A stretch of 51,349 bases of DNA from Verrucomicrobiota bacterium (GTDB lineage Bacteria; Verrucomicrobiota; Verrucomicrobiia; Chthoniobacterales; UBA10450). Shown in pieces: positions 25,600-46,241 of this stretch. Made by a program: the position numbers and the translations under genes. Location of the stretch: NCBI GenBank assembly GCA_003219465.1, contig QHOX01000060.1, forward strand, positions 1 to 51,349, written 5' to 3'. The notes beneath the pieces were generated by a model. The model ran no database searches, had not been told where the DNA came from, and was given only the letters and a program-made list of their open reading frames with translations. Position 1 is the first letter of the stretch. Every line of letters starts with the position of its first letter.

Positions 25600-26604
25600 A
25601 TGACACCGGATCGCAGACTGAGTTGTCTAAGCATCTTTTTGTTCGTGGCGCTTTGTGCCAGTCTGTTCGTGAACTTTGTATTGATAATCGCCGCATTTCA
25701 GCGTGTGAGCGGAATCCGTGAAGCAGAGCCGATCCCGCGTTTCCGCGAGATCCTGCTGCAAAGAGGCGCGCGCGTGACAACGGACAAGATCGCCGTTATC
25801 ACCATGCGCGGCCTGATCAGTACCTCGATCCCCGGAAATGTCAGCGACTCGATGGTGGACGATTTGCGTGCAGCACTGCAGCAGGCGCGCGATGACAGCC
25901 GCGTGAAAGCCATTGTGCTGGAGATCGATTCGCCCGGCGGAGAAGTCACCGCTTCCGATGAGATCTACAGCGCGGTTGTCAAGACGCGCGCGAGAAAACC
26001 GGTAGTCGTTTACATGGATTCATTGGCGGCCTCGGGCGGATATTATGTCTCCTGCGGCGGCAAATTTTTGATGGCTAATGAAACCACGATAACCGGGAGC
26101 ATCGGCGTAATCATTCAAACTCTGAATTACGAGCAGCTGTTTAACAAAGTCGGGCTCGCATCCGTAGTTTTTAAGAGCGGCAAATTCAAAGACATGCTCA
26201 ACGGAGCGCGACCGATTACGCCGGAAGAGCGGGAGCTCGTGCAGAACTTCATTATGAGCACGTACGACAAGTTTCTCGGAATTGTCGCAAAGGAGCGAAA
26301 TCTGCCGGCTGAGCTTCTGCGCAACACCATCGCCGACGGTCGAATTCTTTCGGGCAAAGAAGCATTGCAAAACAAACTCATAGACGGTCTCGGTGAGCTA
26401 GACGACGCCTTCGCCAAAGCAAAACAACTGGGGAACGCGCCCGAAGCCAAAGTCGTGAAGTACGGTCCGCCGTTTAGTCTGGCGCGGTTTCTCCGGATAT
26501 TTGGAGAATCGGACTCGAAGATCGAACTGCAACTGCCGAAACAACTCGTGCCGCAACTCGAATCTGGACGCGCGTATTTCCTGCCGAGTTATTACGCTCC
26601 GTAG
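25600..26604 (+). CDS. sppA: signal peptide peptidase SppA
   Basis: Membrane-anchored serine protease that degrades cleaved signal peptides in the membrane. The start ATG at 25600 is preferred because the membrane anchor (SIFLFVALCASLFVNFVLII, residues 11-30) then comes directly after a short basic end; an upstream TTG at 25528 is less likely. The core has VLEIDSPGGEVTASDEI, then DSLAASGGYYVSC with the nucleophile Ser145, and VFKSGKFKDML with the general base Lys197, a spacing like that of the Bacillus-type enzyme. At about 334 residues it is the short, single-domain form. It begins a run of same-strand core genes. Confidence 0.92.
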   Translation: MTPDRRLSCLSIFLFVALCASLFVNFVLIIAAFQRVSGIREAEPIPRFREILLQRGARVTTDKIAVITMRGLISTSIPGNVSDSMVDDLRAALQQARDDSRVKAIVLEIDSPGGEVTASDEIYSAVVKTRARKPVVVYMDSLAASGGYYVSCGGKFLMANETTITGSIGVIIQTLNYEQLFNKVGLASVVFKSGKFKDMLNGARPITPEERELVQNFIMSTYDKFLGIVAKERNLPAELLRNTIADGRILSGKEALQNKLIDGLGELDDAFAKAKQLGNAPEAKVVKYGPPFSLARFLRIFGESDSKIELQLPKQLVPQLESGRAYFLPSYYAP

Positions 26605-26638
26605 GCGCCGAGGGTAGCGCACACTTCAGCACGCCCTC

Positions 26639-35109: not shown

Positions 35110-35190
35110 GGCTGTAGAGTCCGCTGTCTCAGCGGATTTGCGCTTGCTCCCGATTTTATCTCTGCGCTGAGGACAGCGCACGCTACAGCC
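35110..35190. repeat. palindromic repeat, family A (intergenic)
   Basis: Arms GGCTGTAGAGTCCGCTGT and ACAGCGCACGCTACAGCC pair with two mismatches. Each arm also holds its own small hairpin (CCGCTG/CAGCGG and TGCGCTG/CAGCGCA). It sits between the convergent RRM and tRNA-Tyr genes and may also end transcription. Confidence 0.88.
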
Positions 35191-41424: not shown

Positions 41425-41506
41425 GCTGTAGTGTCCGCTGCCCTTAGCGCAGTGGCTGGTACGGCAATGCCATGGCGGTTCCGCTGAGGACAGCGGACAC
41501 TACAGC
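41425..41506. repeat. palindromic repeat, family A (intergenic), perfect arms
   Basis: GCTGTAGTGTCCGCTG at 41425-41440 pairs perfectly with CAGCGGACACTACAGC at 41491-41506. It lies between the convergent rpsI and the TPR protein gene and so can act as a two-way terminator. Confidence 0.92.
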
Positions 41507-43033: not shown

Positions 43034-43123
43034 ATGAGGCGCAACAAAAAGCGATGGATTAAGCCGACACTCAAAACAGTGCCGATCTTTTTTGAGTGCA
43101 CCTGTTACGCGGGGGCGATCTGA
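43034..43123 (+). CDS. pqqA: PQQ precursor peptide PqqA (29 aa)
   Basis: The peptide ends with WIKPTLKTVPIFFECTCYAG. PqqA peptides typically have WxKP near the start and ExTxY near the end; the Glu and Tyr in ECTCY are the residues that become cross-linked to form the PQQ skeleton. The two Cys flanking Thr are unusual. It lies 30 bases before pqqB. The ATG at 43034 follows GGGTGGGACTT, a good ribosome site; an upstream in-frame ATG (43016) would add six residues. Too short for usual gene callers. Confidence 0.85.
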   Translation: MRRNKKRWIKPTLKTVPIFFECTCYAGAI

Positions 43124-43153: not shown

Positions 43154-44002
43154 TTGATTCGCATCCAAATTCTCGGCAGCGCGGCCGGCGGCGGTTTGCC
43201 CCAGTGGAATTGCGCGTGCGCAAACTGTGTCGCGGCGCGAACGGGGAAAATTGAAGCGCAAACTCAATCCAGCATCGCGATCAGCGCCGACTCGGAAGAA
43301 TTTCAGAACTGTTGGTTAATAAACGCCTCGCCTGATCTGCCACGGCAAATCGAAAACACGACGCGATTGCAACCGCGCCGCGATGCATCGCGCAATACTC
43401 CGATCGCGGGCGTTCTTTTGACTAATGCAGATATCGATCATGCACTGGGCTTGTTGCTCCTGCGCCAACAGGAGAAGCCGCTTGTCGTTTACGCTGCGGA
43501 TGAAACCCGAGCTATGCTCGCGTGGCTTGACCGCACTCTTGCGCGGTTCTGCGGAATCGAATGGCGGAAGATCAGTTCGACTTTTCAATCATTGGACAGC
43601 AGTCTCGGGTTTCGCGCGATTGAATTGGCGCATAGCGTCGCGTTTCAGTTTCTGGACCAAGCATCGGGCCGGTTGGCGCTAGTCGCACCAGCGGTTAGCG
43701 AGCTTACCCGCGAATTGTCGGAAGCGTCCGCCGGCTCCGACGTGATTTTGTTCGACGGCACATTCTGGAGTGACCATGAACTTGCTTGCGTCCGGGCCGG
43801 CGCTCGCAGAGCGCGAGAGATGAATCATCTGCCCGTCAGCAGTGGCAGCCTGAACTTCTTGCGCCAATCGCCGGCACGCCGGAAGATTTACACGCATGTT
43901 AACAACACAAACCCGATTTTCATGCCCGGCTCTCCAGAACGTGTAGAACTCGAGCAGGCTGGCATCGAAGTCGCGCGGGATGGACTAGAGATCGTTCTAT
44001 GA
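43154..44002 (+). CDS. pqqB: PqqB, PQQ biosynthesis hydroxylase
   Basis: Metallo-beta-lactamase-fold protein that acts on the PQQ precursor. The N-terminus IRIQILGSAAGGGLPQWNCA with CAC..C is the family signature. Other parts are VLLTNADIDHALGLLLLRQ, ILFDGTFWSDHEL, REMNHLPVSSGS and IYTHVNNTNPIF. The only fitting start is TTG at 43154, since the fold begins at once and no ATG precedes it; it may limit expression. The stop overlaps pqqC by 4 bases (ATGA). Confidence 0.93.
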   Translation: MIRIQILGSAAGGGLPQWNCACANCVAARTGKIEAQTQSSIAISADSEEFQNCWLINASPDLPRQIENTTRLQPRRDASRNTPIAGVLLTNADIDHALGLLLLRQQEKPLVVYAADETRAMLAWLDRTLARFCGIEWRKISSTFQSLDSSLGFRAIELAHSVAFQFLDQASGRLALVAPAVSELTRELSEASAGSDVILFDGTFWSDHELACVRAGARRAREMNHLPVSSGSLNFLRQSPARRKIYTHVNNTNPIFMPGSPERVELEQAGIEVARDGLEIVL

Positions 44003-44790
44003 CCACTGAGCTTTGGGACCGCGAAACCTTTGTCGAAAAATTACGCACGATCGGCGTGCGCGCTTATCACGATAAACATCCGTTCCATATCGCGATGAAC
44101 GAAGGCCGCCTTTCGCAGGAATCGGTGCGCGGCTGGGTCGCAAATCGGTTCTACTATCAGCAAAACATTCCGATTAAAGACGCCGCGATTCTAGCCAACT
44201 GCCCGGTGCGCCAAGTGCGACAGGCGTGGATTCATCGCATTCTGGACCACGACGGGGTTTCGTCCGGGGCCGTAGAGTCCACTGTCCTCAGCGGAGAATC
44301 CGCGGCGCCTCATGCGCCGAGGACAGCGCACACTACAGCAAACGAAGGCGGCGTCGAAGCGTGGCTCCGACTGGGTGAAGCGTGCGGGTTATCGCGGGAG
44401 GAGCTACTGGATAATCGCCATCTGTTGCCCGGAATGCGATTCGCCGTGGATGCCTACGTGAATTTTGCGCGCAGTCAGCCCTGGCCGATCGCCATCGCGT
44501 CTTCGCTAACCGAGCTTTTTGCGCCAGAGCTGATGTCTGCACGGCTTGCAGCCTTCGAAAAGTTTTATTCGTGGATCGACGCTCGCGGTCTTGATTATTT
44601 CCGCCGGCGAGTCACGCAGGCGCGGCGCGATTCTGACGACGCGCTTGCGATTACCTTGGAATATTGCGACACGCCCGCGCTTCAGCGGCAAGCCGTACGC
44701 GCGCTCGAGTTCAAATGCGATGTGCTCTGGTCCATGCTCGACGCAATTCATCACGCCTATGGCGGTTTGGAGATCGCCGCTCCTGCTTAA
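43999..44790 (+). CDS. pqqC: PqqC, pyrroloquinoline-quinone synthase, with in-frame repeat insertion
   Basis: Oxidase that makes the final ring closure and eight-electron oxidation in PQQ synthesis, cofactor-free and cytoplasmic. The N-terminal part YHDKHPFHIAMNEGRLSQES, then GWVANRFYYQQNIPIKDAAI and RILDHDG, is typical. In relatives, DHDG is followed within about five residues by GGxEAWLRLGEA. Here residues 91-114 (from repeat 44269-44339) lie between them, about 25 extra residues. The reading frame is kept and the rest (FAVDAYVNFARSQPWPIAIA, TLEYCDTPALQRQAVRALEF) is intact, so the protein may still fold with a surface loop. Confidence 0.93.
   Translation: MTTELWDRETFVEKLRTIGVRAYHDKHPFHIAMNEGRLSQESVRGWVANRFYYQQNIPIKDAAILANCPVRQVRQAWIHRILDHDGVSSGAVESTVLSGESAAPHAPRTAHTTANEGGVEAWLRLGEACGLSREELLDNRHLLPGMRFAVDAYVNFARSQPWPIAIASSLTELFAPELMSARLAAFEKFYSWIDARGLDYFRRRVTQARRDSDDALAITLEYCDTPALQRQAVRALEFKCDVLWSMLDAIHHAYGGLEIAAPA
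44269..44339. repeat. palindromic repeat, family A, inside pqqC
   Basis: The arms GCCGTAGAGTCCACTGTCC and GGACAGCGCACACTACAGC pair with several mismatches. The element is 71 bases long and belongs to the same family as those at 35110, 41425 and 45156. It is read as protein in the phase giving VESTVLSGES...HTTA. Confidence 0.9.
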
Positions 44791-45075
44791 ATGCGCGCCA
44801 CGACAATTTCTGATTTGGCTCGGCCGAGCCTGGCGAAGGGCGTTCGGTTACAAATCGATTCTGCCACGGGCAAAAGCGTGCTGCTTTACCCCGAAGGCAT
44901 TGTCGAACTAAACGAAACCGCGCACGAAATTCTTTCCCGCTGCGACGGACGAACACTGGGCGAGATCGTTTACGAATTGGCCGAAGAATATGAGGCGGAC
45001 TCTAACGCGCTCGCCGCGGATGTACGCGATACGCTCTCGGATTTGCAGCGTCGAAAGCTGGTCAAACTGACATGA
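44791..45075 (+). CDS. pqqD: PqqD, PqqA peptide chaperone
   Basis: Small protein that binds PqqA and hands it to PqqE. RPSLAKGVRLQIDSATGKSV, LLYPEGIVELNETAHEIL and CDGRTLGEIVYELAEEY are the usual parts. It starts directly after the pqqC stop (TAAATG) and its stop overlaps the pqqE start by 4 bases (ATGA at 45072-45075). Confidence 0.94.
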   Translation: MRATTISDLARPSLAKGVRLQIDSATGKSVLLYPEGIVELNETAHEILSRCDGRTLGEIVYELAEEYEADSNALAADVRDTLSDLQRRKLVKLT

Positions 45076-46241
45076 GAGTGCCGCGACCATACGCATTGCT
45101 CGCGGAGATAACGTACCAGTGTCCACTGCACTGCCCGTATTGCTCAAACCCTGTGACTGTAAAGTCCGCTGTCCCCAGCGGAGAACATATTGGGCCCACT
45201 GCGCTGAGGGCAGCGCACACTACAGCAGGCAACGGCGAGCTCACGACGGAAGAATGGCAACGTGTCATTCGCGAGGCCGCTGCGCTTGGCGTTCTGCAAA
45301 TCGGCTTTTCCGGAGGCGAACCACTTGCTCGGCGCGATCTCGTCGAACTGATTCGCGCGGCGCGTGAGGCAAAGCTTTACACGAACCTCATCACCAGCGG
45401 CATCGGTGTTGATCACGATCGCGTGCGCATGTTGCGCGATGCTGGATTAGATTCGATCCAATTAAGTTTTCAGTCAGATAGATCAAGCCTGGCGGACGAA
45501 ATCGCCGGCGTGCGTGCGCATGACCGTAAGCTTGATGTCGCTGCGAAAATTCGCGCAGCGGGAATTCCGCTGAGCCTCAATTTCGTGATTCACAGGCGGA
45601 ACATCGATCGACTGCCGCAAATGATTGACCTGACGGAAGCCCTGGGCGCCGAGAGAGTCGAGTTGGCGAACGTGCAGTTCTACGGTTGGGCGTTTCGCAA
45701 TCGTGCAGCGTTGCTCCCCACACGTGAGCAAGTGGACCGGGCACGCGACGTCGCGACCACAGCTAAAGCGCGGCTCGCGGGCAAGATCGCCATCTTTTAT
45801 GTGTTTCCGGACTACTACGAAGCTCGCCCTAAACCCTGTCTTAACGGGTGGGGACAACGATATCTCACCGTCAATCCAATCGGCGACGTCCTTCCCTGCC
45901 CAACCGCGTCATCTGCGATTCCGGATTTGCGTTTTGAAAACGTGCGGGAGAGCGCGCTCGATTGGATTTGGCAGGAATCGGAAAGCTTCAACCGGTTTCG
46001 CGGAACCGAATGGATGCCCGAGCCGTGCCGGAGTTGTCCGCAGCGGGAAATCGATTTTGGCGGGTGCCGTTGTCAGGCTGCGTTGCTGACCGGAACCGCC
46101 GCGAACACCGACCCGGTTTGCGAATTCTCACCAAATCGCGCAGTCGTGGACGCTGTGCTGCACGACATCAATTCCTCAAGCGAGCATATGCGTGAGTGGA
46201 CATATCGTACTAACCCATCCGCGTCGCCTATTTCGGTTTAG
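45072..46241 (+). CDS. pqqE: PqqE, radical SAM peptide cyclase, with in-frame repeat insertion
   Basis: Radical SAM/SPASM enzyme that links Glu and Tyr of PqqA. The SAM cluster motif is C17PLHC21PYC24 and the SAM-binding GFSGGEP follows. The C-terminal SPASM part has LNGWGQRYLTVNPIGDVLPC, CRSCPQREIDFGGCRCQA and later Cys residues. Between SNP (after Cys24) and ELTTEEW a repeat (45156-45226) adds about 20 residues that relatives do not have, close to the active-site loop. The reading frame is open throughout, which suggests it is tolerated. Confidence 0.94.
   Translation: MRVPRPYALLAEITYQCPLHCPYCSNPVTVKSAVPSGEHIGPTALRAAHTTAGNGELTTEEWQRVIREAAALGVLQIGFSGGEPLARRDLVELIRAAREAKLYTNLITSGIGVDHDRVRMLRDAGLDSIQLSFQSDRSSLADEIAGVRAHDRKLDVAAKIRAAGIPLSLNFVIHRRNIDRLPQMIDLTEALGAERVELANVQFYGWAFRNRAALLPTREQVDRARDVATTAKARLAGKIAIFYVFPDYYEARPKPCLNGWGQRYLTVNPIGDVLPCPTASSAIPDLRFENVRESALDWIWQESESFNRFRGTEWMPEPCRSCPQREIDFGGCRCQAALLTGTAANTDPVCEFSPNRAVVDAVLHDINSSSEHMREWTYRTNPSASPISV
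45156..45226. repeat. palindromic repeat, family A, inside pqqE
   Basis: The arms ACTGTAAAGTCCGCTGTCC and GGGCAGCGCACACTACAGC pair imperfectly. Length is 71 bases, as in pqqC. It is read in the same phase and orientation as in pqqC, giving VKSAVPSGEH...HTTA. Confidence 0.9.

Follow-up and report, generated by a model that had tools for sequence, protein, structure and literature searches.

The palindromic elements of Rickettsia, reportedly treated by Ogata in 2000, are in-frame palindromes in unrelated genes. They are the classic parallel for the insertions described here, and the extra peptide they add is tolerated (reviewed in PMC10969869). REPINs, dimers of GTAG-headed REPs that occur with RAYT transposases (Bertels and Rainey 2011, PMC3116915; Nunvar 2010, PMC2817692), have been described as extragenic, and a CT dinucleotide is the reported cleavage site of TnpA-REP (PMC8266576). 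The sections of Di Nocera 2013 drawn on here (PMC3733652) record in-frame REPs with GTAG and CGTC heads, the GTAG cases coming mostly from Opitutus terrae, a verrucomicrobium. These REPs lie in unrelated proteins, often as dimers coding for 20–30 amino acids, and in two Xanthomonas species recB carries one at roughly the same position; pqq genes are not among the hosts named in these sections. In-frame REPIN insertion is a known, little-studied habit, and the case from soil Verrucomicrobia reported here extends it. To those sections it adds a multi-species series of empty and occupied loops, several repeat families per loop, a test of neutrality and a RAYT lying within RarA. Most striking is that one and the same loop can hold different repeat families, depending on the species.

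The source metagenome-assembled genome (MAG; 4.19 Mb, 413 contigs, 88.8% complete, 5.5% contamination) is closest, among named relatives, to the 'AV' series of MAGs from soil Verrucomicrobia and is more distantly related to Chthoniobacter flavus. In the window, by which we mean the whole stretch of 51,349 nucleotides analysed, the genes follow the order pqqABCDE (Table 1), with pqqA putative; the short ORF assigned to it, likely pqqA by its sequence, has the C-terminal end FECTCYAGAI. A sequence-only reading of this DNA had proposed that palindromes of one family lie inside pqqC and pqqE in the same orientation and reading phase and that both genes remain open. The coordinates and open reading frames in Table 1 agree with this, and the family models for PqqC and PqqE match on either side of each insert. 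In addition, the window contains the arm motif of the element, here called R1, 12 times, where 2.4 occurrences are expected, and single-strand folding of the inserts beats shuffled sequences (z −4.2 and −3.7). Each insert measures 71 nt, or 65 nt counted from GTAG to CTAC. The pqqC copy codes for about AVESTVLSGESAAPHAPRTAHTTA (PqqC residues 91–114) and the pqqE copy for about TVKSAVPSGEHIGPTALRAAHTTA (PqqE residues 29–52), and we infer that both are read through into protein.

Table 1 Features of the pqq locus and R1 copies in the window.
Feature	Position	Strand	Remarks
Decayed lone R1 arm	26603..26630	+	75% identity
R1 REPIN copy	35114..35186	+	Outside any recognised gene
R1 REPIN copy	41428..41503	+	Apparently intergenic
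Putative pqqA	43034..43123	+	MRRNKKRWIKPTLKTVPIFFECTCYAGAI, ExxxY motif; pattern search only, no family-model support; 5' of pqqB
pqqB	43154..44002	+	TIGR02108
pqqC, pyrroloquinoline-quinone synthase	43999..44790	+	TIGR02111; ORF open across insert, 263 aa
R1 REPIN in pqqC	44269..44339	+	Core GTAG..CTAC 44272-44336; covariance-model score 73.3 bits
pqqD	44791..45075	+	TIGR03859
pqqE, radical SAM/SPASM maturase	45072..46241	+	TIGR02109; ORF open across insert, 389 aa
R1 REPIN in pqqE	45156..45226	+	Core GTAA..CTAC 45159-45223; covariance-model score 74.8 bits

Alignment with relatives of known crystal structure supplied the insert borders that the earlier reading had asked for. PqqC residues 88–114 stand where these relatives have 2 residues and PqqE residues 31–53 where they have 3, and both proteins align to the structures on either side of the insert and nowhere within it. 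The PqqE insert begins ~5 residues past C24, the third cluster cysteine of the CxxxCxxC motif (residues 17–24), close to the SAM cluster as had been noticed. In PqqC the insert begins 3–8 residues past the near-invariant D83-H84-D85-G86 motif, which shows almost no variation in the alignment and includes H84, which we take to be catalytic.

Eleven aligned R1 copies read GCTGTAGAGTCCGCTGTCCTCAGCGGA, followed by a variable loop and TGCGCTGAGGACAGCGCACNCTACAGC. Each half consists of a GTAG head and a hairpin (TCCGCTG..CAGCGGA; on the other strand TGCGCTG..CAGCGCA), and the halves are mutually inverted. Because two inverted GTAG-headed REPs with imperfect hairpins are the anatomy of a REPIN, R1 is, on this sequence evidence, a REPIN of the GTAG superfamily. 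It is multi-copy, dispersed and mainly extragenic, with ~52 loci in the MAG (covariance model, 104 both-strand matches), of which ~5 lie in recognised genes, and a covariance-model search detected it in 58 of 83 family genomes. Of 93 readable R1 ends, 73 have the dinucleotide CT directly 5' to the GTAG head, as expected of REPINs. A RAYT-like HUH transposase gene has R1 REPINs on either side in two relatives, G056 (L243:2242-2772, with a second, apparently shortened RAYT-like gene as neighbour) and G028 (L242:4564-5319). No R1-flanked RAYT was found in the MAG (88.8% complete), and no R1 arm lay near any of its six Y1-transposase matches. R1 thus resembles known REPIN/RAYT systems in being a non-autonomous, multi-copy pair of inverted GTAG REPs with hairpins and in the REPIN-flanked RAYT of its relatives, but several of its copies lie inside conserved enzymes and are apparently translated. 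The evidence for R1 mobility consists of the presence/absence polymorphism of the inserts among species.

The likeness to Rickettsia palindromic elements drawn in the sequence-only reading stood in part. These are, as predicted, mobile loop inserts lying in frame in unrelated protein genes (pqqC, pqqE, S9 peptidase, hydrolase and AMP-binding enzyme), but the family is another one, a GTAG REPIN with a RAYT in relatives. Membership of R1 in the Rickettsia family was considered and rejected, since R1 is GTAG-headed, 65–71 nt long and set apart from the Rickettsia elements by description. The latter include the longer RPE-1; they are about 100–150 nt long or, in Di Nocera's scheme as given in the sections used, CGTC-tagged (RPE-4/6), and they belong to Rickettsia, whereas the pqq-loop inserts occur in a different bacterial group and have GTAG or GGAG heads and a link to RAYT. 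R1 dimers share with the intragenic REPs of those sections an in-frame position in unrelated proteins. The bacterial group itself, which had been pointed out as quite different, is no surprise, because in-frame GTAG REP dimers were already recorded from Verrucomicrobia there (PMC3733652).

The genome search suggested earlier did find the element in further coding genes. At least five R1 copies are read through in frame in genes that a family model or a homologue identifies, namely pqqC, pqqE and the genes for an S9 peptidase (C124), an alpha/beta hydrolase (C336) and an AMP-binding enzyme (C319). All five share one reading phase, compared to 22 of 93 background open frames (coordinate-based count), a bias with a probability of ~7e-4 if frames are independent, which is only roughly true. 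In this phase the peptide reads V-x-S-A/T-V-x-S/T-G ... TA-x-T-T or a close variant; the remaining phases are also open, yet their peptides are Cys/Arg-rich. Since the R1 core measures 62–65 nt and is not a fixed multiple of three, it is selection acting on inserted copies, rather than the build of the element, that preserves the reading frame.

Eight congeneric species have an empty PqqC loop, with three residues between the DHDG and EGG-side codons, and 11 an occupied one; for the PqqE loop the numbers are 5 empty and 12 occupied, one of the latter holding a short remnant. Besides R1, the occupants belong to two GGAG-headed families and to two more with GTAG heads. All non-R1 occupants are repeated in their own genomes, with about 6–32 matches for GTAGcc, 7–12 for GGAGa, 2–5 for GGAGb and 2–3 for GTAGgg, each count including the query site. 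Even sister species differ: in pqqE, G071 holds R1 and G076 a GGAG element (bootstrap 99), and in pqqC, G073 holds R1 and G068 a GGAG element (bootstrap 100). Outside the genus, both loops are short in the pqq operons of Chthoniobacter and in ~60 others, and loop length is almost constant. Relatives with the same extra residues and no palindrome, which would have spoken against insertion, were thus not what the operons outside the genus revealed; they have no extra residues. The net insert length is divisible by 3 in 10 of 11 occupied pqqC and 11 of 12 occupied pqqE alleles and departs from the core of 62–65 nt, by a few nucleotides in some cases and ~10 or more in others; the old insertions have therefore been edited and retain no exact insertion footprint. 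Weak support for the species-tree backbone prevents an exact count of insertion events; the Fitch counts on this tree (9 changes in pqqC and 9 in pqqE) are indistinguishable from those with shuffled labels and are taken merely as high turnover. Because shared inserts, such as those of pqqC in the MAG itself (G000) and in G080, are about as similar as random R1 members, vertical descent and re-insertion are not always separable. Taken together, the alignments indicate that the PqqC and PqqE loops are repeatedly hit and that the repeat family involved varies from species to species.

By the same kind of comparison, the loops of the S9 peptidase and of RarA, an AAA ATPase, follow the PqqC/PqqE pattern. 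The S9 gene loop holds R1 in four species and another insert in two and is empty in six. In the RarA ORF of G000 (C245:23378-25195, ~606–685 aa; L230, also L042 and L119), a complete RAYT-like Y1 transposase domain lies in frame with its own GTAG REP, GTAGCCGCGACGTCCTCGTCGCG, before the domain; G000 is the only one of the genomes compared with a whole RAYT at this site. The RarA loop of congeners is mostly empty, with GTAGCCGG-type REPINs in G050, G065, G066, G073 and G078 and other short inserts in some further congeners. The alpha/beta hydrolase insert occurs only in G000 and its sister G080, and the site is empty in nearly all other congeners that have the gene.

Loop modelling, also proposed earlier, placed the inserts in otherwise well-predicted folds. 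The AlphaFold models of PqqC and PqqE matched 1otw and 6c8v with target-normalised TM scores of 0.85 and 0.90, respectively, and pLDDT fell below 50 only in the inserts (PqqC 92–111; PqqE 31–53) and the C-terminal tails. The inserts are hence predicted to be disordered loops. Their pN/pS ratios (Nei-Gojobori) are about 0.6–1.5, compared to 0.09–0.19 for the remainder of the same genes, although each insert offers few sites, so that single values are rough, and one pair has no synonymous change. With near-neutral ratios beside constrained flanks, the inserts are, as far as these substitution patterns tell, tolerated and not selected, neither preserved in sequence nor destructive to the gene.

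We regard it as very probable that REPINs mobilised by a RAYT pile up in tolerant loops and that the peptide has no selected function. The pqq inserts would be non-autonomous REPINs, each a pair of inverted REP hairpins, and would be moved in trans by a RAYT (TnpA-REP, an HUH Y1 transposase), with insertion probably beginning at the CT just 5' of the GTAG head. Selection would remove most insertions into genes, and a few exposed loops would accept 20–30 extra residues, given the right frame and no stops. In such loops insertions would accumulate, decay, be deleted and be replaced, and those of PqqC and PqqE would be two of them, despite their nearness to active-site motifs.

An alternative is that the DNA of the loop, for example the CCT of an invariant proline, or a resident REPIN attracts the RAYT, so that newly arriving elements would enter or displace older ones, and that tolerance is irrelevant. 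Different families do sit at almost the same nucleotide in pqqC, pqqE, S9 and rarA, CT precedes GTAG, and rarA alleles are CCGCCT-GATT when empty and CCACCT-GTAG when occupied. Palimpsests such as G082 pqqE, where a GTAGgg element is joined to an apparent R1 tail that recurs in G053, also fit. However, CT is much too frequent to single out a loop, empty pqqE alleles are mostly CCG, and the element heads in pqqC start 9, 10 and ~15 nt past the DHDG codons, with no common starting base. Selection in favour of tolerated loops is the simpler account of the data, and we consider target preference of this kind rather unlikely. Only tentatively can the loops be seen as landing pads, into which REPIN families and sometimes a whole RAYT insert or replace one another, with target choice and tolerance both driving the repetition; if so, protein loops would turn over via transposition with the frame preserved. 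That the peptides are now useful, for instance as flexible linkers or interaction tags in a PQQ enzyme complex, would suit the persistence of inserts across species, the involvement of two genes of one operon and the one phase shared by five genes. It is improbable, given that the insert sequence is nearly without constraint and predicted to be disordered, that unrelated peptides substitute in sister species, that many congeners have no insert and that unrelated proteins carry inserts too. An assembly or binning artefact could be suspected from the 413 contigs and 5.5% contamination of the MAG and from the broken frames of the G056 copies, but is very improbable, because the same inserts (~80% identity) recur in independent genomes, including the separately named GenBank MAGs L121, L122 and L124. 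Finally, ordinary length variation with a chance palindrome, conceivable in that loops are variable regions, is hardly credible when the insert DNA matches a genome-wide family (E about 1e-16), folds far more strongly than shuffles and interrupts a loop almost invariant in length outside the genus.

Returning to RAYT-mobilised insertion into tolerant loops, we know of few if any cases in which REPIN insertion has been caught in the act, or of established target rules. Loops that are empty or hold element A, B or C in relatives represent natural empty/occupied pairs, and also allow tolerance to be assayed and supply a neutral clock within conserved enzymes. They further illustrate the way mobile DNA may generate new protein segments, predicted to be disordered, near active sites without destroying function.

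Several individual alleles deserve mention. In G082 pqqE a tail similar to the R1 end comes after the GTAGgg element, and in G053 pqqE such a tail stands alone (L020/L027); these tails look like layered insertions or deletion scars. In the pqqE of L011, a partial REP head (GTAGCATGCGCCGAT) lies immediately 5' of a complete R1 REPIN, possibly a nested insertion. At G056:C90 (L019, L258), stops occur in the pqqC insert and a frameshift near or at the CxxxCxxC motif of pqqE, and these genes may be decaying or reflect an assembly error. At L044 (G000:C277), a RAYT gene lies between GGAG-headed REPs (GGAGCCGGCCTGCCCTCAGGCCG), which suggests that GGAG heads form a second type, served by a RAYT of their own.
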